DNA of 62,075 nucleotides from the NCBI GenBank assembly GCA_902514095.1, contig CABXPS010000001.1, forward strand, positions 1 to 62,075, in the 5' to 3' direction. The position numbers were made by a program, and so were the translations under genes. The DNA comes from an uncultured marine group I thaumarchaeote (lineage in GTDB: Archaea > Thermoproteota > Nitrososphaeria > Nitrososphaerales > Nitrosopumilaceae). This document shows positions 27,414-48,836 of the stretch, piece after piece. Within the stretch, counting starts at the first letter, position 1, and every line of letters begins with the position of its first letter. A model generated the notes under the pieces. The model had not been told where the DNA came from. It was given only the letters and a program-made list of their open reading frames with translations, and searched no databases.

Positions 27414-27668
27414 ATGATGATAAATATAAAAAAATTTCAAAATAAACTGTCATGTGTTTGTAAAAATATTGTACTTTTTGAAATTATTCCTGAAATTGAA
27501 TGTGACTGGGGGTTTCATACTGTTATTCAATGTCCCAAGTGTAAAGAATTATTTTCCATTGATAAAAAATGCCCTGCATTTCAAACTATTGAAATATTGT
27601 TAAATGAAAATATTAAATTATACACTGATGAGGAACGATTTTCTTATTTGGCAAAATCTCACCCTTGA
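27414..27668 (+). CDS. small zinc-ribbon-like protein, 84 aa
   Basis: Cys-x-Cys (SCVCKN) near residue 14 and Cys-x2-Cys (QCPKCKE) near residue 41, plus a Cys at KKCPAF, suggest a zinc ribbon. Mixed strand and helix; no family recognised. It is divergent from the duplicated zinc-finger gene at 27147-27359. Confidence 0.6.
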   Translation: MMINIKKFQNKLSCVCKNIVLFEIIPEIECDWGFHTVIQCPKCKELFSIDKKCPAFQTIEILLNENIKLYTDEERFSYLAKSHP

Positions 27669-27682
27669 TAAAATTTTTAGTG

Positions 27683-27769
27683 TTAAGTAAATAGCACTAT
27701 AAATCCTATGGCTGATGCAACCAAGGAAATGCCCATACACACATAAAATTTCATAAATTTTACACTCAT
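27683..27769 (-). CDS. possible 28-aa single-pass membrane microprotein
   Basis: Frame MSVKFMKFYVCMG followed by ISLVASAIGFIVLFT: a basic start and one 18-20 residue hydrophobic helix, a typical small membrane protein. The hydrophobic pattern is unlikely in a random AT-rich frame. No ribosome-binding site is obvious. Confidence 0.45.
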   Translation of the reverse strand: MSVKFMKFYVCMGISLVASAIGFIVLFT

Positions 27770-28077
27770 ATGATATAGTCAAAACATCTAAAATTAATAG
27801 TTTAGAATTTTGAAAACAGGCAAATTTGATACATTTGTGCATCGACTCTTTGGGAGTTACGGTAAATGATCAAATAGGTTACCTTCCTGCTTCCAATTTT
27901 CTATTAATTTAGATTTTAAAAAATTCTTAAAATAAAACATGTCTATTAATTCATCAAAATAGGTGAAAAAAATTATTCTTTTTTGATTATTTTTAAAATT
28001 GAGCCTAATATCTAATTCCATTTAATTCTCTACTTTATTCCCAATAATTTTATTCTCTATTAAAAATACTTACAATT
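27770..28077. other. gene-free stretch with two small inverted repeats
   Basis: No protein gene is supported. Near 27840-27883 there are ACTC/GAGT (27845-27848 with 27854-27857) and GGTAA/TTACC (27861-27865 with 27879-27883), forming two short hairpins in a GC-richer patch; a small RNA is possible but weakly supported. The rest is AT-rich, with the promoter of the gene at 28078 at its end. Confidence 0.35.
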
Positions 28078-41878: not shown

Positions 41879-43189
41879 ATGATAGACACTGAATTAGGAA
41901 AATTACGCAGATCTCATTATTCTGATGAATTAAACTCATCCATGGATGGTATCAAGGTAACTGTAATGGGATGGGTCTTAACTGTAAGAGGTCATGGAAA
42001 TATCAGTTTTGCAACTATTCGAGATAAAAATGGATCTCTTTCAATTGTTGCAAAAAAAGGGGATTGTCCTGATGAAATACGTGAAAAAATCTCCTCTCTA
42101 AAAGCACACTCATCTATTGCAATAATTGGAACCATAAAAGCATCTGAAAAAGCACCAAGTGGATTTGAAATTATTCCCACAGAGTTACGGGTATTTTCTG
42201 AAGTAACCACAATTCCTCCATTTGAGCCAACTGCAAAAACTGTCAAAAATATTGATACTCGTTTAGAAGTAAGACCAATTGATCTTAGACGTAATATATT
42301 ACAACATGTTTTCAAAACTAGAAGTTTAGTTTTAAAAACAATTAGAGATTATTTCAATGATCAAAATTTTATTGAAATCAATACCCCAAAAATGATTGCA
42401 ACAGCTACTGAAGGTGGAGCTGCATTATTTCCAATATTTTACTATAACAAAGAAGCATTTTTGGCACAAAGTCCCCAATTGTATAAAGAACAATTAACTA
42501 TGAGTTTTGAAAAAGTTTTTGAAATCGCACCAATTTTTAGAGCAGAGCCTTCAAGAACAAATAGACATTTAGCTGAAGCAATATCAATAGATTTGGAAGA
42601 AGCTTTTGTAGATTACAATGATGTGATGAACAGAATAGAGGAAATCATAAAAGTTTCAATTATTGCAGTTAATGATTACATAAAAAATAACCCTGATTCA
42701 GAATTTACACCAACTCCAGTACCTGAAAGCATTCCCAGATACACATACGATGATCTTGTAGATAGAATGCAAAAAGCAGGAGCAAAAATAGAATGGGGTG
42801 ATGACTTGTATCCATCAAATCTTAAAAAAATTGGTTTAGACGGTTTTTACTTTATTACTGATTGGCCACTTGGACCAAAGCCATTTTACGTAAAAGATAG
42901 TAAGTCTAATCCAAAAATTTCAGAATCATTTGATTTGATGTTTGGAGATTTGGAATTGTCTTCCGGCAGTACAAGAATTGAAAAACGTGATGAGTTAGCT
43001 CAAAGAATGAGTAACAAAGGTATGAAAACAGACTCCTTCGAGTACCATCTTAATGCGTTTGATTACGGTGTCCCACCACACGCAGGTTGTGGTATTGGTC
43101 TTGAGAGATTAATCATGGCTTTAACTGGAACTGAAAATATTCGTGACACTACATTTTATCCAAGAGATGTTGATAGACTAACCCCATAA
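41879..43189 (+). CDS. aspS: aspartyl-tRNA synthetase, probably non-discriminating
   Basis: 436 residues, archaeal/eukaryal-type class II enzyme: N-terminal OB-fold for the anticodon, motif 2 IFRAEPSRTNRH, motif 3 GIGLERLIM. In the OB-fold, GWV is followed by Leu, and the later loop reads EKAPSGFE, with Pro where discriminating archaeal enzymes carry Lys. Those positions are known to control acceptance of tRNA-Asn. With gatCAB 2.5 kb downstream, this enzyme probably charges both tRNA-Asp and tRNA-Asn with aspartate, the latter then being amidated. Confidence 0.94.
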   Translation: MIDTELGKLRRSHYSDELNSSMDGIKVTVMGWVLTVRGHGNISFATIRDKNGSLSIVAKKGDCPDEIREKISSLKAHSSIAIIGTIKASEKAPSGFEIIPTELRVFSEVTTIPPFEPTAKTVKNIDTRLEVRPIDLRRNILQHVFKTRSLVLKTIRDYFNDQNFIEINTPKMIATATEGGAALFPIFYYNKEAFLAQSPQLYKEQLTMSFEKVFEIAPIFRAEPSRTNRHLAEAISIDLEEAFVDYNDVMNRIEEIIKVSIIAVNDYIKNNPDSEFTPTPVPESIPRYTYDDLVDRMQKAGAKIEWGDDLYPSNLKKIGLDGFYFITDWPLGPKPFYVKDSKSNPKISESFDLMFGDLELSSGSTRIEKRDELAQRMSNKGMKTDSFEYHLNAFDYGVPPHAGCGIGLERLIMALTGTENIRDTTFYPRDVDRLTP

Positions 43190-43195
43190 TCCTAT

Positions 43196-43405
43196 ATGCC
43201 GAATTCAGGAAATTTTCACTCGTCAAAATCTAATGCTAGAATATTTTGTGCATGGTGTCAGAAATGGAAAACTGGACACATAGTTTTAAAATTTACAAAG
43301 GGCGCAAATTGGAAAATTCACAAACATTTCAAAGGTGACAAAGCTTGCAAAGGTTCAGATAAAGTTGTCATGAAACCAAATTCTCCTACATCATCTGAAA
43401 AATAG
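43196..43405 (+). CDS. small zinc-finger-like protein, 69 aa
   Basis: Cys-x2-Cys (FCAWCQKW) near residue 19, His residues (WKIHKHFKG), and a final Cys (KACKGS) give one zinc site. Basic overall, possibly RNA-binding. It starts 6 bases after aspS and is probably co-transcribed. Confidence 0.65.
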   Translation: MPNSGNFHSSKSNARIFCAWCQKWKTGHIVLKFTKGANWKIHKHFKGDKACKGSDKVVMKPNSPTSSEK

Positions 43406-43499
43406 ACTAGTATCAATTCAATTGTTTTATGGTTTACTGAAAATCCTCAAAATAATGTTTTAATTTTAATACAGTAAAACAATTTTTCAATTCATACTT

Positions 43500-44768
43500 A
43501 TGATTGAGAGTTTATCAAAAATTATCAAAATTAGTGGTCCTGGACTACTATTTGCGAGTACTGCAATAGGGGTATCACATCTAATCCAATCAACTAGAGC
43601 AGGGGCAGATTTTGGATTGATGATAATTGGGTTTGTAGTATTAGTTAGTGTACTGAAATACCCATTTTTTGAATATGGTTCAAGATATGCAAACTCCACT
43701 CAAACAAGTATAATTGACGGATACAAAAAATTAGGAACTCCAATTTTAGTTTTGTATCTAATAATTACTGTATGTTCAATGTTTTTTGTAACAGGTGCCG
43801 TAGGGTTTGTAACTGCTGGATTTTTTGAGAATTTATTTAATTTAGAATTTTTGGGAGAATGGTCCATCATACTACTATTCATTTCATGTGTATTGATTTT
43901 AGGAATTGGTAAATTTCATTTGTTAGATAATTTGATCAAAATTATTGTAACTGTTTTAGTTGTATCCACTGTACTAGCATTTTCACTTACTGTAATTAAT
44001 GGACCAGTAGAACCTGTAGATGATTTTATTCCAAAAGAATTATGGACAACAACAGGAATTTTCTTTTTATTGGCCTTAATGGGTTGGATGCCAACTGCAA
44101 TAGATTTATCAAGTTGGAATAGCTTATGGACTTTAGAAAAAATAAAACAATCAAACTATAGACCCAAATTAAAAGAGACTCTTTTAGAATTTAGAATTTC
44201 TTATCTTCTTACAGGGATTTTAGCAATAATGTTTGTTACCCTAGGTACTTTCATCTTTTATGGTTCGGGTGAAGAACTTCCTAACAATAATTCCCAATTT
44301 GCGCATACAATTATTACAATGTATAGTGATGTGATGGGAAATTGGAGCTATATTGTAATTTCTGCATCAGCATTTACTGTGATGTTTGGAACAATTCTGG
44401 CTGTATTTGATGGATATTCTAGGGCACTTAACAGAACTGTGGAGTTATTATTTAGAAAAAATAATACAAATCAATCTACTAGTTCACGAAAATTATATTC
44501 TGTTTTTCTTGTTCTATTAGCCTCAGGTTCACTGATAATTGTACTCCAATTTGGAGATAATCTCAAGGAATTAGTTGATTTTGCAACAATTCTTTCATTT
44601 GTAATTGCTCCAGTTATTGCAATTTTTAATTATAGATTAGTGACTGGAAAATATTTGGAAAAATCTCATCAACCTTCAATATTGTTAAAAATTCTAAGCA
44701 TATCTGGAATTTTATTCTTATCTGGATTTGCTGTATATTTCATATTATTAAAATTCATTTTAAATTAA
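43500..44768 (+). CDS. Nramp-like divalent metal transporter, divergent metal site
   Basis: 422 residues with about 11 membrane helices. The N-terminus SGPGLLFASTAIGVSHLIQS matches Nramp helix 1, but the canonical DPGN metal-binding motif is replaced by an A-I-G-V-S-H segment, and the helix 6 MPH motif by GWMPTAIDLSSW. This is a recognised divergent branch of the family, so the ion carried (Mn, Fe, Mg or another) cannot be stated. Own promoter likely in the 94 bases before it. Confidence 0.85.
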   Translation: MIESLSKIIKISGPGLLFASTAIGVSHLIQSTRAGADFGLMIIGFVVLVSVLKYPFFEYGSRYANSTQTSIIDGYKKLGTPILVLYLIITVCSMFFVTGAVGFVTAGFFENLFNLEFLGEWSIILLFISCVLILGIGKFHLLDNLIKIIVTVLVVSTVLAFSLTVINGPVEPVDDFIPKELWTTTGIFFLLALMGWMPTAIDLSSWNSLWTLEKIKQSNYRPKLKETLLEFRISYLLTGILAIMFVTLGTFIFYGSGEELPNNNSQFAHTIITMYSDVMGNWSYIVISASAFTVMFGTILAVFDGYSRALNRTVELLFRKNNTNQSTSSRKLYSVFLVLLASGSLIIVLQFGDNLKELVDFATILSFVIAPVIAIFNYRLVTGKYLEKSHQPSILLKILSISGILFLSGFAVYFILLKFILN

Positions 44769-44800
44769 AAATTTTTATTTAATTCAAATTTTAACAACAT

Positions 44801-45328
44801 ATGCCATTTGTAAAAGAAGGCAATGAAACACATCCTGATGTTTTTTCATTGTATAAAGAAATTAATGATGAATTGCAAATTGGTAAAATTCCAAATATTT
44901 TAAAAACTACATCAATTGATCCACAGATAGCAAAATGGTTTTGGGATGGAGTAAAAATCATCCTACTTCGTGAATCATCTATTCCAAGAATTTTAAAAGA
45001 ATCTATTGCAGTTGTAGTTTCAAATGCAAATTCATGTAAATATTGTACACAAGCACATGGAATGTTACTACAATTAATGGGATTTACGGATCAACAAATT
45101 ATTGATCTTAAAAATAATTTTAAAAGTTTTTCAGATAAAGAAAAAGCTGCACTAAACTATGCATTAAAAATCAATGATTCCGCAAACAAAACTACATCTG
45201 ATGATCATAAAATTTTAAAAGATTTCGGATATGATGATAAACAAATTGTAGAAATTACATCTGTTGTTGCTGCTTTTAATTGGGCAAATATTATTGCAGA
45301 TGCATTAGGTACAGAAATGGAATCCTAA
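44801..45328 (+). CDS. carboxymuconolactone decarboxylase/AhpD-like protein
   Basis: 175 residues, all-helical. The motif NSCKYCTQAHG gives Cys-x2-Cys-x3-His, the redox centre of AhpD-like alkylhydroperoxidases. Probably a peroxide or thiol reductase; a different physiological partner is possible. It starts 32 bases after the Nramp-like gene. Confidence 0.88.
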   Translation: MPFVKEGNETHPDVFSLYKEINDELQIGKIPNILKTTSIDPQIAKWFWDGVKIILLRESSIPRILKESIAVVVSNANSCKYCTQAHGMLLQLMGFTDQQIIDLKNNFKSFSDKEKAALNYALKINDSANKTTSDDHKILKDFGYDDKQIVEITSVVAAFNWANIIADALGTEMES

Positions 45329-45363
45329 TGACATGATATTTTATGATATAATTTGATCATACA

Positions 45364-45403
45364 ATCAATTTTTTCATTGTTTTTTTATTTTATGAAAATT
45401 TAG
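45364..45403 (+). repeat. 40-base promoter-like repeat, copy 1
   Basis: Matches 45519-45558 at 38 of 40 positions (differences only C/T). Contains TTTTATGA at 45388-45395, about 26 bases before the start of the hairpin RNA at 45417. Confidence 0.9.
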
Positions 45404-45416
45404 AAATAGAAATCAA

Positions 45417-45485
45417 GCCAAGATTACAAAGGAACATGAAAAGAAAGGGGATTTGAACCGAACTGGAATTCATGTTAATCTAGGC
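45417..45485 (+). ncRNA. candidate small RNA, tandem copy A
   Basis: Nested inverted repeats: GCC 45417-45419 with GGC 45483-45485; AGATT 45421-45425 with AATCT 45477-45481; then a perfect 8-bp helix AACATGAA 45433-45440 with TTCATGTT 45469-45476 closing a loop that has CC-GAACT-GG. Starts where the upstream TTTTATGA box would place transcription. Not a tRNA. No coding frame covers it. Confidence 0.6.
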
Positions 45486-45518
45486 ATAAATTTTGTATAA
45501 ACCAAAATTACTGTTTAG

Positions 45519-45558
45519 ATCAATTTTTTTATTGTTTTTTTATTTTATGAAAATTCAG
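45519..45558 (+). repeat. 40-base promoter-like repeat, copy 2
   Basis: Second copy, offset 155 bases from 45364-45403. Contains TTTTATGA at 45543-45550, about 25 bases before the second structured RNA at 45569. Confidence 0.9.
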
Positions 45559-45568
45559 TAAAGCATAG

Positions 45569-45652
45569 TATTGCCATGGGTAATGCTGGGCTGCGATAAT
45601 TCAAACTAACGCATCTTTTGGGATTATCGCTCTACCTTGTGGCTAAACAATA
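45569..45652 (+). ncRNA. candidate small RNA, tandem copy B
   Basis: Four nested complementary pairs in register: TATTG 45569-45573 with CAATA 45648-45652; CCA 45574-45576 with TGG 45640-45642; GGTA 45579-45582 with TACC 45633-45636; and a perfect 8-bp helix GCGATAAT 45593-45600 with ATTATCGC 45623-45630, loop 22. Folds as one long interrupted hairpin, differing in sequence from copy A but behind the same promoter repeat. Ends ~70 bases before gatC. Confidence 0.65.
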
Positions 45653-45721
45653 AGATCAAAGTAATTTGTGCCTACCATTTTATAGTAAGATTGATAGATT
45701 AACCTCATAGGAGTATAGAAA

Positions 45722-45985
45722 ATGGTTACCGTTGAAGAAATTGAACATGTTTCAAAATTAATGAAAATAAATGTAGATGATCATAGTGAATACCTAGAAA
45801 AAGTTCAAACAATGATTAGTTATTTTGATATTTTAGATTCTGCAGGTGTTGAATCTGAAGAAATTTCTATGCCAGAAATCCCAATTGAACAATTACGAAA
45901 TGATGAACATATTCCATTTGGGGATAAATTAATTGAAAAAATGAACCATTACAAAGGAACATTCGTTAGAGCACCAAAGATGTAA
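45722..45985 (+). CDS. gatC: Asp/Glu-tRNA amidotransferase subunit C
   Basis: 87-residue linker subunit that holds GatA and GatB together; begins VTVEEIEHVSKLMKI and has the usual AGVESEEI segment and the FVRAPKM end. Unlike many genes here it has a leader: AGGAG at 45709-45713 lies 8 bases before the ATG. gatA follows after 2 bases. Confidence 0.94.
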   Translation: MVTVEEIEHVSKLMKINVDDHSEYLEKVQTMISYFDILDSAGVESEEISMPEIPIEQLRNDEHIPFGDKLIEKMNHYKGTFVRAPKM

Positions 45986-45987
45986 TT

Positions 45988-47433
45988 ATGAATCTAAAAA
46001 TCTCTGCCCTTGAATTTATTGAAGAAGCTAAAAACGGAAATATTTCTGTAGAAGAATTTGTCAGTACAACACTTGAAAGAATAAACTCTGTTGATGATAA
46101 ACTTCACGCATTTTTATCTGTAAATGATAATGTAATTGAACAAGCACATAATATTGATAAAAAAATTAAATCTGGTGAAAAAGTTGGAGATTGTTTTGGA
46201 ATGCCAATTTCAATTAAAGATAACATGTGTATTAAAGACACTAAAACTACATGTGCTTCAAAAATGCTTGAAAATTTTGTTGCACCTTATGATGCAACAG
46301 TAATTTCAAAATTAAAAAAACAAGATGCAATTTTCATCGGTAAGGTAAACATGGATGAATTTGCTATGGGTCTAACTACTGAATTCAGTGCTTTTGGTCC
46401 AAGTAAAAATCCGTGGAATATTGAACATGTTCCGGGAGGTTCATCTGGTGGCAGTGCAGTATCTGTTAGTTCCTACGAATGTATTGCATCGTTAGGTTCT
46501 GATACCGGAGGTTCTGTTAGAAACCCTGCTAGTTTTTGCTCAACTGTAGGGTACAAACCAACTTACGGATTAATCAGTAGATTTGGATTAATTTCATATG
46601 CAAATAGTATTGAGCAGATAGGACCACTAACTCGAACTGTTAAAGATACTGCATTCATGCTAAATCTAATTGCTGGAGTTGATCCTAATGATAATACCAC
46701 CGTAAACAACAACAATGAAAATTATCTGGAAAATATTGATTCAGGCATTGAGGGTAAAAAAATTGGAATAATTACTGAAATGGTTGGAGATGGAATTGAC
46801 CCTGAGGTAATGACTGCTACAAAAGAGGCAATTTCAAAACTTGAAGGGTTAGGAGCAACATGCGAAGAAGTATCTTTGGAAATGGTGAAATATTCTGTTG
46901 CAGCATATTATACCATTACTGCTACTGAAGCTGGAAGTAATTTAGCTAGATATGATAATTTGAGATATGGATATGAAATGCCTGTTGAAGGTTATGAATT
47001 TAATTCATACATATCAAAAGCTAGAAAAAAGTTTGGACCTGAAGTTACACGTAGAATGATCATTGGAGGCTTTGTCCCATCTGCAGGTCATGCTGGCAAG
47101 TATTTCCTTAAAGCTATGAAAGTAAAAAGTAAGTTAACTAAAGAAATCAATGAGGCATTTAAAAAATTTGATTTATTGATTGCTCCAACAGTGCCAATTT
47201 TACCATTTAAAATCGGAGAAAAAATTGATGATCCTGTTTCCTTATTTTTGGTAGATATCAATACTGTTACAGCTAATTTGACTGGTAAACCTGCCATTTC
47301 AATTCCATTTAAAATCGTTAATGGGTTACCAATTGGAATTCAACTAATGGCAAATTCAATGAATGATAAAATGCTATTGCAAGCAGCCCATGCATTGGAG
47401 AAATCTGTTACTTTACCGGAGGTGCCAATATGA
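45988..47433 (+). CDS. gatA: Asp/Glu-tRNA amidotransferase subunit A
   Basis: Amidase that releases ammonia from glutamine for Asn- (and Gln-) tRNA formation. 481 residues; Ser-Ser-Lys catalytic set in SIKDNM, PGGSSGGSAV and GSDTGGSVRNPAS. gatB overlaps the stop by 4 bases, so the subunits are made together. Confidence 0.96.
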   Translation: MNLKISALEFIEEAKNGNISVEEFVSTTLERINSVDDKLHAFLSVNDNVIEQAHNIDKKIKSGEKVGDCFGMPISIKDNMCIKDTKTTCASKMLENFVAPYDATVISKLKKQDAIFIGKVNMDEFAMGLTTEFSAFGPSKNPWNIEHVPGGSSGGSAVSVSSYECIASLGSDTGGSVRNPASFCSTVGYKPTYGLISRFGLISYANSIEQIGPLTRTVKDTAFMLNLIAGVDPNDNTTVNNNNENYLENIDSGIEGKKIGIITEMVGDGIDPEVMTATKEAISKLEGLGATCEEVSLEMVKYSVAAYYTITATEAGSNLARYDNLRYGYEMPVEGYEFNSYISKARKKFGPEVTRRMIIGGFVPSAGHAGKYFLKAMKVKSKLTKEINEAFKKFDLLIAPTVPILPFKIGEKIDDPVSLFLVDINTVTANLTGKPAISIPFKIVNGLPIGIQLMANSMNDKMLLQAAHALEKSVTLPEVPI

Positions 47434-48836
47434 CAAAAATTGGTTTAGAAATTCACTGTCAATTAACAAATTTAGAAAGTAAATTATTTTGTTCATGTAA
47501 AGCAAATTATCGTGAATTTGAACCAAATGAAAATATCTGTCCTGTATGTGCCGGAATGCCAGGAAGTTTACCTAGATTAAATCAAGAAGCAGTAAAGAAG
47601 GCAACAATAATTTCAATGGCTTTGAATTGTTCAACACCTGAAAAAATTGCATTTTTTAGAAAAAATTATTTTTATCCTGATTTACCTAAAAATTTTCAAA
47701 TTACACAATTGAATATTTATGGTGATACTAGTGTTGGAGGTTCTGGAATAATCACTGTTGGTGATAAAAAAATTCGAATAACTCGAATTCAATTAGAAGA
47801 AGATCCTGGAAGATTAATCTATGAAGGAAGTTCTTCAAAAAATCAAATTACATTGGTAGATTATAATCGTGCAGGCACACCCCTAGTGGAAATTGTGACT
47901 GAACCTGATTTTGAAACTCCAAAGGAAGTACGGGATTTCCTCAACATATTGTCAGATTTACTCAAAAACCTAGGTGTTGCAGACCCAAGTTTAGAAGGAG
48001 CAATGAGGGCAGATGCTAATGTGTCAATTGAGGGAGGGAATAAAGTTGAAATTAAGAACATAGGATCTTTTCATGATTTAGAAAAAGCAGCACATTTTGA
48101 AATTACAAGACAAGAAAGTTTGCATGATAGAGATATAGCAATTGTTCAAGAAACACGTCATTGGGATGATAGACGAAAAATAACCGTATCATCACGTTCA
48201 AAAGAAGAAGATTTGGATTATCGTTATTTTCTTGAAGGTGACATACCATGGGTAAAAATTAATCCTGAAATTAAAACAGAATTAAAATCAAAAATGCCTG
48301 AAAGTATTAGTTCTAAAAAAGAAAGATATGTTACAAAATATCAAATTCCAGAACAAGTTGCAGATGTTTTATCATCAGATAAATTTTATTCAGATTTATT
48401 TGAAGAATCCCATTCAGAATCAAATGCAAAGGAAGTAGCCAATATCATAACAACTGAATTAATGGGATTAGAAGATACTAGAGAAAAACGAGAATCTTCC
48501 AAACTTACTGCAACCCATTTAAAAGATTTAGCAGATGCAATTCAATCAGGAAAAGTCTCTCGTAATTCATCAAAGAATGCTTTACATGAAATTTTAAAAA
48601 CAGGCAAAACCGTATCACAAATAATTTCTGAATTGGATTTAGGTAATGTATCGGATGAAAGCGAATTACTAAAAATTATAGAAAAAATAATTTCTGATGA
48701 ATCTGAAGCGGTAGATCAGGCAAAATCTAATCCCCAAACAATCAATTATCTCGTAGGTAAAGTAATGCAGGCTACTAAAGGAAAAGCTGATCCTACATTA
48801 ACATTAAATTTATTGAAAAAGCAAATTGGCATATGA
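47430..48836 (+). CDS. gatB: Asp/Glu-tRNA amidotransferase subunit B
   Basis: Binds the mischarged tRNA, phosphorylates the aspartyl or glutamyl group and amidates it. 468 residues: IGLEIHCQL start, zinc-type Cys set (FCSCKAN, ICPVCAG), EEDPGRLIYEG, and the C-terminal YqeY/helical tail (AIQSGKVSRNSSK, VGKVMQATKGKADP). Coupled to gatA upstream and to the small gene downstream by 4-base overlaps. Confidence 0.96.
   Translation: MTKIGLEIHCQLTNLESKLFCSCKANYREFEPNENICPVCAGMPGSLPRLNQEAVKKATIISMALNCSTPEKIAFFRKNYFYPDLPKNFQITQLNIYGDTSVGGSGIITVGDKKIRITRIQLEEDPGRLIYEGSSSKNQITLVDYNRAGTPLVEIVTEPDFETPKEVRDFLNILSDLLKNLGVADPSLEGAMRADANVSIEGGNKVEIKNIGSFHDLEKAAHFEITRQESLHDRDIAIVQETRHWDDRRKITVSSRSKEEDLDYRYFLEGDIPWVKINPEIKTELKSKMPESISSKKERYVTKYQIPEQVADVLSSDKFYSDLFEESHSESNAKEVANIITTELMGLEDTREKRESSKLTATHLKDLADAIQSGKVSRNSSKNALHEILKTGKTVSQIISELDLGNVSDESELLKIIEKIISDESEAVDQAKSNPQTINYLVGKVMQATKGKADPTLTLNLLKKQIGI

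Follow-up and report, generated by a model that had tools for sequence, protein, structure and literature searches.

Two putative small RNA genes behind duplicated promoters in Nitrosopumilus-like archaea, one of them from a conserved structured RNA family

Introduction

Archaea of the Nitrosopumilus type rank among the ocean's most abundant microbes, and in the open-access literature we found no described regulatory RNA from this group. The window analyzed here, a 62,075-nucleotide stretch of DNA from an uncultured marine group I thaumarchaeote (contig CABXPS010000001.1), is Nitrosopumilus-like, with Candidatus Nitrosopumilus limneticus and Nitrosopumilus sp. Nsub among its near relatives. 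Upstream of gatC it carries two hairpins, each preceded by a copy of the same short sequence, an arrangement read in an earlier note as two small RNA genes behind duplicated promoters. What are these hairpins, and would they act on the adjacent gatCAB operon or elsewhere?

Results

A duplicated promoter in a gene-free stretch upstream of gatC

The stretch between a carboxymuconolactone-decarboxylase-like gene (44801-45328) and gatC (from 45722) was described as gene-free, and indeed no open reading frame of at least 40 aa was found in 45329-45721. Within it, the claimed 40-base duplication was readily recovered (45364-45403 and 45519-45558, 38/40 identical), with each copy preceding a hairpin. 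The repeat can be extended to 43 nt at 93% identity with a spacing of 155, while in 300 dinucleotide-shuffled versions of the intergenic region the best 40-mer pair reached 28/40. The motif TTTTATGA, also said to precede each hairpin, was located once in each copy, at 45388 and 45543. The features of the locus are as follows.

45364..45403, + strand: promoter copy 1 (before RNA1), with a TATA-like TTTATTTTATG at 45384-45394; the motif is conserved upstream of RNA1 in relatives
45413..45490, + strand: RNA1, predicted ends approximate; conserved in 15 genomes
45417-45426 / 45476-45485, + strand: RNA1 P1, inverted repeat
45433-45440 / 45469-45476, + strand: RNA1 P2, with a large apical loop
45519..45558, + strand: promoter copy 2 (before RNA2), spacing conserved in most of 57 RNA2 homologues
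45570..45650, + strand: RNA2, predicted ends approximate; backed by covariance models and alignments
45573-45580 / 45635-45643, + strand: RNA2 P1, inverted repeat
45585-45589, + strand: RNA2 internal loop, conserved stretch GCUGG
45593-45602 / 45621-45630, + strand: RNA2 P2, inverted repeat, with the apical loop

Relative to the conserved AUUGCC of the RNA2 homologues, ATTTTA starts 28 nt upstream in 40/57 and ATCAA 51 nt upstream in 43/57. Such rigid spacing fits an archaeal TATA box that would set the 5' end at the hairpin foot. When nine genomes were searched with a 30-base promoter pattern (at most three mismatches), matches were found solely before RNA1 or RNA2; at the same stringency, genome G007 gave no match. 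Within single genomes, the RNA1 and RNA2 promoters are 95–100% identical in five cases (G000, G053, G117, G014, and G023) and 71–74% identical in four others (G129, G024, G006, and G049). Both copies carry identical changes in G117 and G014, a hint of gene conversion or recent copying.

RNA2 belongs to a conserved, covarying RNA family

Single-sequence folding of the RNA1 and RNA2 hairpins was just moderately better than that of shuffles (z of -2.2 and -2.45), so the support for them is mainly comparative. A DNA search of relatives recovered RNA2 homologues from distant as well as close members of the genus, at 76–80% identity in the distant ones. The covariance search and the compensatory changes that the earlier note had put forward as a check both gave a positive result for RNA2. 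A covariance model built from 15 sequences matched 59/250 family genomes (E ≤0.01), including genera outside the model's input (g34 at 4e-12 and g42 at about 1e-6), and a model built from 57 sequences matched 63/250 (E ≤0.05), with the extra matches partly weak and the E-values of both models rough. Genome counts throughout refer to one representative per species, and because many representatives are incomplete metagenome assemblies, absence from a single genome carries little weight. A search of 400 genomes from the class with the 57-sequence model, under strict filters, gave no RNA2 beyond the family. Weak matches in G037, G058, and G000 (contig C2) were discarded, as their stems are not kept and they lack the promoter. 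Viral contigs sharing an RNA2 16-mer were also considered; none of the 22 matches fits the covariance model, and they are therefore taken as chance.

There is one convincing copy of RNA2 per genome except in G009, where two copies with equal scores are on separate contigs. Both RNA2 and gatC occur twice in this genome (C1:268141 and C4:25142), and the doubling is probably an assembly duplication or contamination (reported at 9%).

In the 57-sequence alignment, which was fitted to the structure, 96.8% of cells are paired, compared with 32–41% for slid structures, and 73 two-sided changes fall in 9/18 pairs, a value reached by 0/500 shuffles; both helices covary. A MAFFT alignment made independently of the model gave 97.4% of cells paired and 29 two-sided changes in seven pairs. 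In this family, a lower stem of 8 bp leads through a lopsided internal loop, which usually contains GCUGG, to an upper stem of 10 bp, capped by an apical loop that usually contains CGACAUU. With some exceptions, its conserved stretches are AUUGCCAUAG, GCUGG, CGACAUUGAUUACC, and CUGUGGCC; the copy in G119 is at C1:783241-783335. No clear T-run terminator was seen at the 3' end. In Rfam 15, no family matched the locus at its gathering score and nothing convincing appeared at E values up to 10, nor did we find a prior report of RNA1 or RNA2 in the open-access literature. On this comparative evidence, the designation of RNA2 as a structured RNA is well supported, and it appears to define a previously undescribed, essentially single-copy Nitrosopumilaceae family absent from Rfam 15. 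The earlier reading of the second hairpin as a small RNA gene is thereby strongly reinforced, with its transcription predicted from the promoter.

RNA1 is a separate and narrower family

A covariance model built from ten RNA1 sequences matched 15/250 genomes, all within the genus. Although 99% of cells conform to the RNA1 pairing, 12/16 pairs never vary, so the proposed shape is compatible with the alignment and not proven by it. Conservation in 15 genomes with mostly invariant pairs gives moderate backing to a small RNA gene here, presumably transcribed. Two genomes (G040 and G005) have a diverged RNA1 at another locus behind the same type of promoter, with no RNA2 alongside, and in G001 the two RNAs are on different contigs.

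RNA1 and RNA2 have the promoter and general architecture in common; recognizable sequence they do not. The earlier note had proposed that promoter and hairpin shape rather than primary sequence are kept in a tandem, diverging locus. The first part did not hold within each RNA, since the sequence of either one is conserved across species. As for the second, the tandem arrangement is real but confined to the window's clade, and a diverging pair was not seen, each RNA standing alone elsewhere. RNA1 and RNA2 are two RNA families with a common promoter and not a visibly diverging tandem pair.

RNA2 has changed place and has been lost repeatedly

A convergent Zn-ribbon-like gene borders RNA2 in 40/57 genomes, where RNA2 immediately precedes the gene's 3' end at a distance of at most 27 bp (123 bp in G161); in most relatives, RNA2 sits between this gene and a tiny transmembrane (TM) ORF. 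Four more of the 57 have RNA2 beside other genes of the Zn-ribbon site, and three g42 genomes have it beside none of the Zn-ribbon-site or gatC neighbors. As the commonest location, and one common to genus g34, the Zn-ribbon site is taken as the probable ancestral one. Its counterpart in the window (27.4-27.9 kb) lacks RNA2.

27423..27682, no strand assigned: probable ancestral RNA2 site, empty in the window genome, from synteny with relatives
27423-27665, + strand: Zn-ribbon-like gene at that site

Pieces judged by eye to be degraded remnants of RNA2 are present at the ancestral site in G025, G010, G012, and G039. At the same site in G113 (C15:51400-52600), the promoter is kept above a hairpin of largely different sequence, possibly a fast-changing RNA2 orthologue. 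Judged from these comparisons of gene order, RNA2 is a gene that relocates, decays, and is dispensable.

These observations bear directly on the suggestion that the RNAs regulate gatCAB. In the window, gatC starts about 75 bp past the end of RNA2, as might be expected if RNA2 acted in cis on the operon, as a leader or attenuator. However, RNA2 sits elsewhere in most relatives, and gatC in other genomes has neither RNA upstream. Only the window's clade has RNA2 near gatC, and even there the two are separated by anything from 72 bp to about 1.4 kb (0.6-1.4 kb in G014, G117, G121, G053, and G049). The synteny upstream of gatC that had been proposed as a check is thus not conserved, the Zn-ribbon site being occupied in most relatives. 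Relocation, decay, and dispensability argue against cis control, which we regard as extremely improbable; the regulatory link to gatCAB found no backing. On the other hand, the occurrence of RNA2 at three kinds of genomic site fits an action in trans.

Differences in site between lineages would also be expected of mobile elements, and the hairpins might be DNA structures (terminators or mobile-element ends) or short coding genes rather than RNA genes. Against the former, no multi-copy relatives were found in the genome, and G-U pairs along with compensatory changes fit a + strand RNA. Against the latter, most relatives have AUA in place of the AUG found in the window's RNA2, and no reading frame is common to the homologues. 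The conserved frame that the earlier note had named as evidence against RNA genes was looked for across the region and not found, with indels breaking the frames. We give these alternatives very little likelihood.

Neighbors of the ancestral RNA2 site

Another structured RNA, RNA3, is predicted beside the ancestral site (27810-27896, minus strand, core GUAACUCCCAAAGAGUCGAUG). In 21 sequences, 96.7% of cells are paired (slid controls, 27–46%) and 14/26 pairs have two-sided changes; no Rfam match was found. RNA3 resembles RNA2 in having a lower stem, a 5'-biased internal loop, an upper stem, a conserved apical part, and a similar TATA element, but it differs in sequence and is retained also where RNA2 is lost. 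In many Nitrosopumilus genomes, the tiny conserved ORF (27683-27769 in the window, minus strand) separates RNA3 from the ancestral RNA2 site; it encodes 28 aa with one transmembrane-like segment (MSVKFMKFYVCMGISLVASAIGFIVLFT).

Could the RNAs pair with tRNAs?

The region 41879-48836 has a non-discriminating Asp-tRNA(Asn) ligase gene about 2.5 kb upstream of gatCAB, with an Nramp-like transporter gene in between, which places the genes for both steps of Asn-tRNA synthesis close together. NCBIfam confirms the gatA, gatB, and non-discriminating AspRS names; GatC scores below its cut-off, with a match that spans its whole length and a gene directly before gatA. This neighborhood is one reason to consider that the RNAs act on tRNAs by antisense pairing, perhaps in connection with the Asp-tRNA(Asn) pathway. 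Two segments are of interest here.

45443..45459, + strand: segment of the RNA1 apical loop, antisense to tRNA T-arms; 2/100 shuffles reach its score
45628-45636: RNA2 segment antisense to the tRNA D-arm consensus, in the window's clade only

In G129, RNA1 pairs with the T-arms of Leu, Ser, and other tRNAs (2/100 shuffles as good) and RNA2 with D-arms (5/100), but the shuffle test was run after the match had been noticed. The T-arm core is present in 13 RNA1 copies of the window's clade and absent from the two distant homologues, those of G005 and G040 (98/100 shuffles as good in the latter), and the D-arm-matching segment is likewise confined to that clade. The tRNA pairing is therefore suggestive for the window's clade only, and as an account of both RNAs we think it very unlikely.

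RNA2 and the archaeal guide RNAs

As the main rival to a trans-acting regulatory RNA, RNA2 may be an H/ACA-like guide of atypical form that directs pseudouridylation, its internal loop serving as the pocket. Archaeal H/ACA RNAs can consist of a single hairpin with a lower stem of 7-9 bp and an upper stem of about 10 layers, the latter separated by 14-16 nt from an ACA/ANA box (PMC4652768, PMC7991803). RNA2 is likewise a single hairpin with a covarying 8-bp lower stem and 10-layer upper stem, and in 44/57 sequences an ANA is found at this same 14-16 nt spacing (control positions, 7/57). The RNA2 tail is A-rich, and a strict ACA within 12-17 nt occurs in 9/57. Loss of a guide RNA in several lineages would be tolerable, in keeping with the losses of RNA2.

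Other features do not fit this reading. No K-turn or K-loop was found in RNA2, where the expected tandem G:A layers are covarying Watson-Crick pairs, and only 11/57 have GA at both flanks of the apical loop. The pocket varies within the family, from GCUGG to GAAGG. Two-part matches to the 16S/23S rRNA of G119 and to the tRNAs of G129 are at chance level (40/100 column shuffles and 23/200 shuffles as good, respectively). One 16S site (idx 1527) was matched as well by 6/100 shuffles in a single species, and a family-wide match was not found. In RNA1, about 9 nt rather than 14-16 precede the AUA. Given the missing K-turn, the varying pocket, and the chance-level targets, RNA2 was not filed as H/ACA; it could work like such a guide, which we judge improbable overall.

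Archaeal C/D box sRNAs were also considered and set aside. Boxes C (RUGAUGA) and D (CUGA) were not seen near the ends on inspection of the alignments by eye, and continuous antisense of the RNA to rRNA gave nothing above shuffles.

Discussion

We favor an action of RNA1 and RNA2 in trans, and a trans-acting structured regulatory RNA appears to be the most likely function. On this model, the two would be independent small noncoding RNA genes of about 75-80 nt, each having a copy of the dedicated archaeal promoter to itself, with transcription starting at the hairpin foot. A protein would hold the conserved stems, while exposed loop segments would pair with target RNAs and tune their use; conservation of the stems suggests the former and conservation of the loops the latter. 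Resting as it does on comparative data, this combined account seems to us somewhat better than an even proposition. More tentatively, and with considerable doubt, RNA2, RNA3, and RNA1 may form one new architectural class of archaeal small RNAs with a common protein partner in marine ammonia-oxidizing archaea, its members relocating, decaying, and changing in sequence from species to species. The features of this putative class would be a lower stem, a 5'-biased internal loop, an upper stem, a conserved apical loop, and a TATA element at a fixed distance.

In any case, a conserved and covarying RNA2 with a dedicated promoter provides a directly testable entry point, and its repeated loss and relocation supply natural knock-outs for comparison.

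Among known systems, archaeal box H/ACA sRNAs are like RNA2 in hairpin, stem lengths, and internal loop and, for 44/57 sequences, in ANA distance, but RNA2 differs in its lack of a K-turn/K-loop and of an above-chance target, and in its variable pocket. Methanosarcina sRNA154 and Haloferax s479 are archaeal trans-acting regulatory sRNAs. RNA1 and RNA2 are similarly intergenic, small, and lineage-specific, and apparently also alike in having a promoter of their own.
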